DNA of 37,256 nucleotides, from positions 1-37,256 of the forward strand of contig DAOVAI010000005.1 in assembly GCA_030671085.1 (NCBI GenBank), read 5' to 3'. A program made the translations under genes and the position numbers. The notes under the pieces were generated by a model, which saw nothing but the letters and a program-made list of their open reading frames with translations, ran no database searches and had not been told where the DNA came from. This DNA is from Pseudomonadota bacterium (lineage in GTDB: Bacteria > Desulfobacterota > Desulfobulbia > Desulfobulbales > Desulfocapsaceae). Shown here piece by piece: positions 31,220 to 33,545 of the stretch (positions are counted from its first letter, which is position 1; each line of letters begins with the position of its first letter).

Positions 31220-31380
31220 GTGTCACGTCAAGGATGAAATGTCGTATATTGCGCCACCATTTTTTGTGCTTGCGAGGCATGGATTGATAAGCATAGTTGT
31301 GCTATGTGAGTCAAGCCGTAACGAAGCAAGCGCGAAAAAGGGTAAGCAAGATGCGTCATTTTAGAGTTGACGGGGCACTA
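31220..31380. repeat. Palindromic MITE-like element, family A copy 1 (161 bp, uninterrupted)
   Basis: gtgtcacgtcaaggatgaaatgtcgtatattgcgcc...gacggggcacta; ends are imperfect inverted repeats; near-identical to 35832-36154 minus its insertion. Confidence 0.85.
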
Positions 31381-31797
31381 AAGACTTTTAACAAATTCTC
31401 GTATCTCCAGGCAGACTCGTTGATAGCAGGCCAGCTCTTCTTCCTCGCAGCCTGCATTTTTTGCCAGTTGCGGGGGGTCATCAAAGGGGTGATGCATCAC
31501 CTTGGCATCCCCCGGAAACAGGGGACAGTTCTCATCAGCATGGCCGCAGACAGTAATGACCAGGTCGAAATCTGTTTCCGCCAGCTCATCCACATGTTTT
31601 GACCAGTGACTGCTGATATCCGCTCCCGCCTCCTGCATGGCCTTGACTGCCATAGGGTTCAGGCCATGGACCTCTATTCCTGCCGACCAGGCCTCAATGC
31701 GCTCCCCATGCAGATGACGGGCCCAGCCCTCTGCCATCTGACTGCGGCAGGAATTTCCGGTACAGAGAAAGAGGATTTTTTTGCGTTTTTCACCCAT
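31378..31797 (-). CDS. arsC: Thioredoxin-type arsenate reductase
   Basis: KILFLCTGNSCRSQMAEGWARH, VITVCGHADENCPLFPG, HHPFDDPP. Confidence 0.93.
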   Translation of the reverse strand: MGEKRKKILFLCTGNSCRSQMAEGWARHLHGERIEAWSAGIEVHGLNPMAVKAMQEAGADISSHWSKHVDELAETDFDLVITVCGHADENCPLFPGDAKVMHHPFDDPPQLAKNAGCEEEELACYQRVCLEIREFVKSL

Positions 31798-31805
31798 TAT
31801 CAAGC

Positions 31806-32033
31806 TCAATGGTTAAGAAGAAGTGAGCCGCTGATCTCGTCCACCGCCCGGCGGACATCGGCCAGGCATCACCTGCCCTTTGGATTTGTCTCCTGGCAGC
31901 GGCACTCCCCGGCCCTGGAAGCGGCCATAATCGCCTCCAGAATGGTGGATCTCCCATTTTTTCTGAAATCCTCTTCAATATCCTTACGGCTGTGAGCAAA
32001 ACAGTAGCAGAGCAATTCGTCTTTTGTATCGAT
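31806..32033 (-). CDS. Candidate selenoprotein: CopZ N-terminal-like (2Fe-2S) metallochaperone with in-frame TGA (Sec) at 31869-31871; start codon unresolved
   Basis: Minus strand reads (I)DTKDELLCYCFAHSRKDIEEDFRKNGRSTILEAIMAASRAGECRCQETNPKGR-[TGA]-CLADVRRAVDEISGSLLLNH*. TGA falls at the first Cys of the NPxGxCCLxDV motif. Hairpin GTCCGCC-GGGC-GGTGGAC follows. Confidence 0.75.
31839..31856 (-). promoter_or_regulatory. Putative bacterial SECIS element
   Basis: 7-bp stem GTCCGCC/GGTGGAC (one G-U pair) with loop GGGC; 19 nt between the UGA and the loop G. Confidence 0.7.
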
Positions 32034-32087
32034 GATAATCTCCTGTTCTCTTTTCCTTCAGTCTTCTGCCTTAATACCTCTTACTCT

Positions 32088-33188
32088 CTATATCAGCAGG
32101 TTAAAAAGATATCCGGTAAAGAGGATGCCTCCTCCCACCACCATGATAAAGGTTGCGATCAGCCTGGGTTTGAGCACCTTGCGCAGAATCACCATTTCCG
32201 GCAGGGACAGGGCAATCACACTCATCATAAAGGCAAGGACTGTGCCAAGGGCTGCCCCCTTGCCAAGCAGGGCCTCGACTACGGGTACCATGCCTGCAGC
32301 ACCGGAATACATGGGGATTCCAACAAGGACTGCAGCCGGTACTGACCACCAGGCATCTTTTCCCATGAGAGAGACCATCAGGTTTTCCGGAACATAGCCA
32401 TGGATGAGTGCACCCACCGTGATTCCTGCCACCACATAAAGCCACACCTTCCCCACAATATCACGCACAGCCTCTTTACCAAATTCAAATCGATCTCCCC
32501 AGGTAAATTTCTGTGCCAGGACAAGGGCTTCACCCGAGCGCATCTCCCCCACCCAATCCTCAACATACTTTTCCATCTTCATCCTGCCGATAATCCATCC
32601 TGCGACAACAGCAATAGTCAGCCCTGTCACCAGATAGAGTGCAGCCACCTTCCACCCCAGAAGTCCGTACAGCAGGATCAGGGCTACTTCATTAACCATG
32701 GGTGCTGCAATGAGGAAAGAGAGGGTGACTCCCAAAGGAATGCCGGCCTGCACAAATCCCAGGAAAAGAGGCACTGCCGAACAGGAGCAGAAGGGGGTGA
32801 TGATGCCAAACATGGCTGCCAGGACATTGCCAGTGGCCTCCCGCCTGCCTGCCAGTATTTTCCGTGTTCGCGCCGGGGTGACAAAGGTACGTGAAACCCC
32901 AACCCCAAAGACCACAAGGGTGAGAAGGAGCATAACCTTGGGAGTATCATAGACAAAAAACTGCACAGCTGCACCAAGATGGCCCCCCTGCTCAAGCCCC
33001 AGAACGGTATAGGAAAAATAATTGGAAAAGGGCAGGAGACTGCCATAGAGAAGATACCAGGCCGCAAGGGCTGCAATTCCCAGGGCCAGAGACCTTCCGG
33101 TGGATACATGTTTTTTATCGGCTGAAGAGCCTGACTTTTTATCAGCACAGCCGCAGCCGGCCTGCGGTAAGGTTTGTAATGGTTCCAT
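32088..33188 (-). CDS. COG0701-type permease (ArsP / metal efflux-like)
   Basis: Multi-TM with FGIITPFCSCSAVPLFLGFVQAGIPLGVTLSFLIAAPMVNEVA; N-terminal GCGCADKK. Confidence 0.9.
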   Translation of the reverse strand: MEPLQTLPQAGCGCADKKSGSSADKKHVSTGRSLALGIAALAAWYLLYGSLLPFSNYFSYTVLGLEQGGHLGAAVQFFVYDTPKVMLLLTLVVFGVGVSRTFVTPARTRKILAGRREATGNVLAAMFGIITPFCSCSAVPLFLGFVQAGIPLGVTLSFLIAAPMVNEVALILLYGLLGWKVAALYLVTGLTIAVVAGWIIGRMKMEKYVEDWVGEMRSGEALVLAQKFTWGDRFEFGKEAVRDIVGKVWLYVVAGITVGALIHGYVPENLMVSLMGKDAWWSVPAAVLVGIPMYSGAAGMVPVVEALLGKGAALGTVLAFMMSVIALSLPEMVILRKVLKPRLIATFIMVVGGGILFTGYLFNLLI

Positions 33189-33197
33189 CGTTGTTCC

Positions 33198-33545
33198 TCA
33201 GGGGCTACACGTTTCTTTTATTTTACACACCAGTCCAAGTTTTCGGTGCATCTGTTTCAACTCATCATCATCTTCAAGCCATTCAGCAAGACAAGAAAGC
33301 ATCTCACTTCCATACACGGACTGGCAATGTGTGATCAGACGATAGATAATCCACGTTCCCTGGCGCTCATGCTCAACCAGACCAGCATCTTCCAGGGTCT
33401 TCATATGCCTGGAGACCGTGGATTGGGCCAGCTGCAAAAGTTCCTGTATCTCACAGACACAGAGCGGCCTTTCCTGTAGAAGCTTCAAGACCCGTACGCG
33501 GTTGGGATCTGACAGGGCCTTCATCACTCGTATAAACTCTTTCAT
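33198..33545 (-). CDS. arsR: ArsR-family metalloregulator
   Basis: MKALSDPNRVRVLKLLQERPLCVCEIQELLQLAQSTVSRHMKTLEDAGLVEHERQGTWIIYRL. Confidence 0.94.
   Translation of the reverse strand: MKEFIRVMKALSDPNRVRVLKLLQERPLCVCEIQELLQLAQSTVSRHMKTLEDAGLVEHERQGTWIIYRLITHCQSVYGSEMLSCLAEWLEDDDELKQMHRKLGLVCKIKETCSP

Follow-up and report, generated by a model that had tools for sequence, protein, structure and literature searches.

The N-terminal domain of Archaeoglobus fulgidus CopZ (AfCopZ), which is fused to a copper HMA domain, is Cys-only and has the pattern CYC...NPxGRCC. The profile family NF047645 (CopZ_Nterm_CC), named as a putative iron-sulfur cluster-binding metallochaperone, describes a 138-residue form, again with a Cys pair and with an N-terminal extension that is the zinc-binding part in AfCopZ. 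In NF045877 (Csac_0668, CopZ form 2), selenocysteine (Sec) lies in the CC pair of a CopZ-type domain and, by its motif name (CU), is the second residue of that pair. A further Sec family has been catalogued as "(2Fe-2S)-binding protein (copper chaperone CopZ family) form 1", with domain cd10141, motif GxUC and example WP_245779778.1; it was predicted from marine metagenome work, appears as a single table line without context or function, and its role is left open by the reviews (PMC9312934, PMC13188914).

We analyzed a 37,256-nucleotide stretch of DNA (the window; contig DAOVAI010000005.1) from a bacterium of the Desulfocapsaceae, which encodes a protein that fits the form 1 entry. Window protein and entry share the domain type and a Sec that follows NPxG(R/K) and takes the leading place in the CC pair. 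The motif is GRUC in the window and GxUC or a close variant in relatives; the CopZ-like Fer2_BFD domain is recognized through NF047645 and Fer2_BFD (both below cut-off) and through the 2hu9 fold, not through cd10141. From motif and domain we infer that the entry and the short, window-type protein are the same. The preliminary description had allowed that the family might already be known to contain Sec, and this is so: the window protein is another member of a catalogued Sec family, not a new family.

The window operon and its CopZ-type protein

Four genes lie in the order arsR, ArsP_1-family permease gene, selenoprotein gene and arsC, all on the minus strand. The first gene of this putative operon, arsR (33198..33545), encodes an ArsR/SmtB-type metalloregulator (PF01022, 68 bits; NF033788, 95.9 bits, above cut-off). 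The permease gene (32088..33188), whose product has the motif TPFCSCSAVPLF, belongs to ArsP_1 by PF03773 (251.5 bits) and not to SaoE by NF040736 (138.3 bits, below the cut-off of 325). The product of arsC (31378..31797; start ATG at 31797 or an overlapping TTG at 31809) is a thioredoxin-type arsenate reductase of the LMWPc fold that matches PF01451 with 66 bits and TIGR02691 with 147.8 bits (E 1.9e-43; below the cut-off of 174.3). The arsenic-type operon proposed from the sequence is borne out.

The selenoprotein gene occupies 31806..32033 on the minus strand. Its frame, read from 32033 through the TGA at 31871–31869 to the stop TGA at 31808–31806, was confirmed in the sequence, as was the overlap of its end with the arsC start region; the product, IDTKDELLCYCFAHSRKDIEEDFRKNGRSTILEAIMAASRAGECRCQETNPKGR-U-CLADVRRAVDEISGSLLLNH, has about 75 residues. 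There is no clear ATG start, as had been noticed earlier. The best candidate is ATC (32033–32031), 6 nt past a Shine-Dalgarno-like AGGAG (32040..32044, minus strand). ATC is a very rare initiator. Because near relatives have ATG (L053), GTG (L054) or TTG (L055) at this position, translation of the window copy probably starts at the ATC, unless this reflects a late base change in the assembly; TTG at 32015–32013 is the alternative start.

A CopZ-type iron-sulfur fold had been suggested for the protein, and structure prediction agrees. The AF2 model (pLDDT 88, pTM 0.75) was compared with the PDB using Foldseek; the best match was the AfCopZ N-terminal domain (2hu9; probability 0.96, E 0.17) and the next real match was Bfd. 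By sequence, too, no solved relative ranked above this domain (E 0.0081). Profile matches were weaker: Fer2_BFD gave 24.1 bits (E 4.7e-5), just under its cut-off of 26; NF047645 gave 55.2 bits (E 8e-15) over profile positions 83–137 of 138, with the cut-off of 100 missed; and NF045877 gave 26.1 bits, with the cut-off of 190 missed. The window protein differs from NF047645 in having Sec for Cys and in lacking the N-terminal extension, and from NF045877 in that Sec is the first residue of the pair. No HMA domain with CxxC was detected in it with Pfam and NCBIfam profiles; the HMA-type family NF041115 (UxxU_metal_bind), which has a different fold, is likewise absent from the window protein. Of the earlier label, metallochaperone, the CopZ-type domain therefore stands, whereas a copper chaperone is poorly favored: the HMA domain is lacking and the recurrent neighbors are arsenic and mercury genes.

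Six Cys/Sec positions are invariant among the aligned relatives (C10, C12, C45, C47, U56 and C57, alignment numbering). Sec aligns with Cys118 of AfCopZ and the following Cys with Cys119; AfCopZ is without the extra Cys that forms the second CxC of the window family. Since a cluster needs four ligands and six Cys/Sec are kept, the Sec may be a ligand of a [2Fe-2S] cluster or a free selenol next to it.

Selenocysteine codon, SECIS hairpin and decoding machinery

The Sec codon (TGA, 31869..31871, minus strand) was said to sit at the first Cys of a CC pair. The Cys homologues L038 and L217–L221, like AfCopZ, have CC here, and the codon aligns with the first of the two. Relatives mostly have TGA at this codon, with few Cys forms. 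A protein search in which TGA was optional gave relatives in 31 of the 58 kin genomes; TGA was present in 34 of the 36 matches, nearly all with a single TGA at the window's codon, and the remaining two were divergent Cys forms. When 396 genomes from the phylum were searched with a profile, again with no TGA requirement, 71 gave a match. The best 59 of the 72 matches from this search all had TGA, and 7 of the 72 were without a stop. Within the phylum the gene nearly always occurs in its Sec form. Relatives do not end before the TGA but read on past it, and similarity beyond the codon is of a coding kind (pN/pS 0.47 in frame versus ~1.05 in both shifted frames). A TGC or TGT misread as TGA, another way in which the idea might have failed, does not agree with a TGA common to relatives across several phyla.

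The spread of the Sec form was surveyed with a DNA pattern (NPxxx-TGA-TGY plus a preceding CxC) in one genome per GTDB species. Matches were obtained on at least 119 contigs, and each translated match was a family member; the pattern includes TGA, so the scan measures spread and not the frequency of Sec. Among the matches listed, TGA occupies the GxUC codon in 147 distinct loci. By name, the organisms in the scan are chiefly Desulfobacterota (Desulfobulbales, Desulfobacterales, Desulfovibrionales and others), joined by Nitrospirota and a handful of stray bins. Genomes labeled Desulfocapsa fall in the window's genus. A tree of the family was built from 72 usable columns, and its branches to the Cys forms are long. 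We also observed a second, divergent GRUC group of Sec proteins (L228–L231; CYCSGVTKGDILxAK...NPRGRUCSREI), by score nearer NF045877; L038, L085 and L086 contain Cys relatives. This group may correspond to form 1 of the reviews or represent an additional subfamily.

The bacterial SECIS (bSECIS) hairpin was found as it had been described: GTCCGCC-GGGC-GGTGGAC (31839..31856, minus strand), with a stem of 7–8 bp, a 4-nt loop (GGGC) and 19 nt between UGA and loop. The published rule asks for a loop of 3–9 nt, G in the first two loop positions and a distance of 16–37 nt from the UGA (PMC13188914). As coded here, with 5 bp required and the energy term omitted, the rule is passed by the window and by 142 of the 147 loci among the matches listed, compared with 33% of random nearby TGAs. 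Across 32 sequences, the seven-pair stem (columns 16–22/27–33 after the UGA) is 94.2% paired, versus 30–66% when the partners are slid by 1–3 columns. The stem overlaps codons, so part of its conservation comes from the protein. Pair 18/31, which is U-A in 17 and C-G in 13 of the 32 sequences, is a compensatory change, and in this alignment such double changes are not accounted for by the protein alone.

The genome of the window has all four of selA, selB, selC and selD: SelA scored 604.7 bits, SelB 377 bits and tRNA-Sec 72.3 bits (gathering threshold 47), and there are two SelD genes (G000:C82:2134-3072 and C248:9904-10830), each with an in-frame TGA (Sec-type SelD). One other genome with the TGA gene (G032, locus L076; 94% complete) gave no SelA, SelB or tRNA-Sec match at the thresholds used, for which masking, incompleteness, a binning error or real loss are possible causes. 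Complete genomes with SelB and tRNA-Sec but seemingly without SelA or SepSecS were considered as a separate candidate finding (L317, L322 and L323, in G012, G027 and G034). This was rejected for G027 and G034, where the apparent absence of selA is an artefact because the site by the conserved selA neighbor is a run of N. G012 has a masked region of 19 kb or more, and in that genome the selA neighbor was not found either. The earlier selenoprotein reading is upheld by the conserved TGA, the coding constraint, the hairpin covariation and the Sec machinery. By these sequence tests the window gene is a selenoprotein gene, at whose UGA Sec would be inserted.

Metal-resistance neighbors and fusions of the GxUC family

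Seed families for the neighborhood survey were taken from the window and from Pfam-checked neighbors; for controls, 40 stretches, each 8 kb long, were drawn from genomes within the same group. Among the matches listed, 47 of the 147 loci have ArsP, ArsC, ACR3, MerA, MerC or ChrA within 4 kb, versus none of the 40 controls (one-sided Fisher p 1.7e-6, a value that serves as a guide only, as related loci are counted as independent, the controls come from fewer genomes and one control is half masked). The core arsenic, mercury or chromium gene is on the same strand as the GxUC gene in 44 of the 47. With the seed families used, the other 100 loci have no such neighbor within 4 kb; 57 of the 147 loci end at contig ends.

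Several layouts recur, and those of ars and mer type do so in different parts of the GxUC tree. The gene follows arsR-ACR3-arsC in L097 and L178 and arsR-arsC-permease in L095, L136 and L180; it lies between merR and merC or merA in L072, L114, L174 and L204, and precedes merC-merA in L122 and L150. Further arrangements are arsR-arsC-permease-gene-TauE-Trx-ACR3 and merR-gene-merC-merA. MerA of L122, L101 and L218 scored above the NCBIfam cut-off, and MerC was identified by Pfam. Strict linkage to arsP and arsR was rejected: L053 and L055, which are the nearest relatives, retain just the pairing with arsC, and in L054, a near relative, that pairing is also gone in the stretch seen. Neighbors are mixed (arsenic, mercury and chromium genes, TauE exporters, PiT and MntP), so no single substrate fits.

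Horizontal mobility on plasmids was also rejected, as the window protein matches only distant Cys homologues in 14 records, all below 60% identity. Cys homologues annotated as "copper chaperone Copz family" or hypothetical adjoin mer genes on plasmids (merR and merB in Deinococcus, merF in Stanieria, merA/merB in Halorussus). An Enterococcus Cys homologue has ArsR and a P-type ATPase as neighbors.

Three Desulfobacterota loci (all plus strand) encode an N-terminal HMA domain with UxxU joined to the GxUC domain: L118 (2249-2740; Candidatus Desulfacyla euxinica), L141 (4049-4543) and L233 (3-551). Each frame has three in-frame TGA codons, or three Sec in one chain. The UxxU motif is GMTUMGU or GMTUMSU, and NF041115, which is here a natural fusion partner, matches with 50–57 bits, below its cut-off of 95. 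L094, truncated where its contig stops, resembles a fourth copy. In L218 (2516-4426, minus strand), a Cys-type CopZ/BFD domain and MerA share one open frame, the MerA part scoring 568.6 bits against a cut-off of 454; given an internal ATG before the MerA part, these are possibly two genes. The frame lies between MerT-like and MerP-like genes, both named by eye. A Planctomycetes plasmid gene annotated as merA also spans a Cys-type CopZ/BFD domain. The predicted fusions point in the same direction as the arsenic and mercury context.

In the literature searched, a set outside which Haft and Tolstoy (2025) and Haft and Gwadz (2023) fall, we found no mention of ars or mer linkage of the GxUC family, nor of a triple-Sec fusion. 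As far as that literature goes, the arsenic, mercury and chromium context is new, and we claim no priority. Recurrence of GxUC genes in arsenic and mercury resistance clusters suggests that selenium is used on toxic metals.

A proposed metal carrier and its alternatives

We slightly favor a reading in which the window protein binds soft metal(loid) ions through its CxC and UC motifs and delivers them to the permease, to ACR3 or to MerA. UGA would be decoded as Sec at GRUC in a small, single-domain protein of the BFD/CopZ-N type, expressed as part of the arsR-arsP-like permease-[gene]-arsC operon. The product would be a cytoplasmic carrier of soft metal(loid)s, of arsenic in this window. A [2Fe-2S] cluster, or else the metal itself, would probably be held by its CxC pairs, and UC, a selenol-thiol pair, would provide very tight yet exchangeable binding of As(III), or of Hg(II) in relatives. 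The efflux permease would then receive the ion, a part that MerA would play in mer operons, and the protein may also assist in reduction of the ion. Such a Sec carrier would be a selenium-based counterpart of the MerP/NmerA- and ArsD-like hand-over. What speaks against the carrier is the absence of a core neighbor at most loci, the mixed neighbors elsewhere, the genome (G032) without matches to Sec machinery and the ATC start.

In the main rival reading, the protein would not carry metal but be a redox partner, either a Bfd-like [2Fe-2S] electron carrier or a selenol reductant that feeds ArsC, MerA or a related reductase; Sec would then act by thiol/selenol exchange and not as a metal ligand. 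We regard this as possible but rather unlikely. Bfd is the next real structural neighbor and Fer2_BFD the Pfam match, ArsC is a reductase and so is MerA, some loci contain thioredoxin and DsbD-type genes, and most Sec proteins of known function are, according to a review, redox proteins. At many loci, however, the 4-kb stretch contains an exporter or transporter but lacks a reductase (L195 with ACR3 alone; a permease in L115, L184 and L198; ChrA in L093, L161 and L194; MerC in L072 and L204), and both the HMA(UxxU) fusions and the MerA-fused homologue point to metal transfer. The CopZ/BFD domain of this homologue sits where a metal-binding HMA domain is found in many MerA proteins.

A role in metal sensing or in iron-sulfur or selenium housekeeping, with the metal operons as incidental surroundings, appears improbable. 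It would suit the 100 of 147 loci (among the matches listed) that have no core arsenic, mercury or chromium gene within 4 kb, and several loci that adjoin unrelated genes such as those for RlmL-like methyltransferases (named by eye), but not the enrichment over control stretches, scattered as it is over the tree, the fusions to metal domains or the Cys homologues that lie among mer genes in other phyla. That there is no selenoprotein at all, the TGA being either a stop or a misread base and the conserved tail an untranslated remnant, has almost nothing to recommend it beyond the non-canonical start codon of the window copy; for practical purposes it is refuted at the level of the family by a TGA shared across several phyla, by the coding constraint that continues after it, by covariation in the SECIS and by the full set of Sec machinery.

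Extended from the window to the family, the carrier reading becomes more tentative, with the chances a little under even: a widespread system of Desulfobacterota and Nitrospirota in which Sec would ligate the metal(loid) in an intracellular carrier dedicated to arsenic and mercury, including three-Sec proteins with UxxU and GxUC. If a standard gene caller is used, reading TGA as a stop leaves the gene too broken, and it is also too short to call; the ars and mer operons of sulfate reducers may therefore often show a gap at this place. Anaerobic sediment bacteria are major players in arsenic and mercury cycling. For a Sec protein that has so far been catalogued, the context amounts to a testable proposal, namely that selenols would capture soft toxic metals in these organisms.
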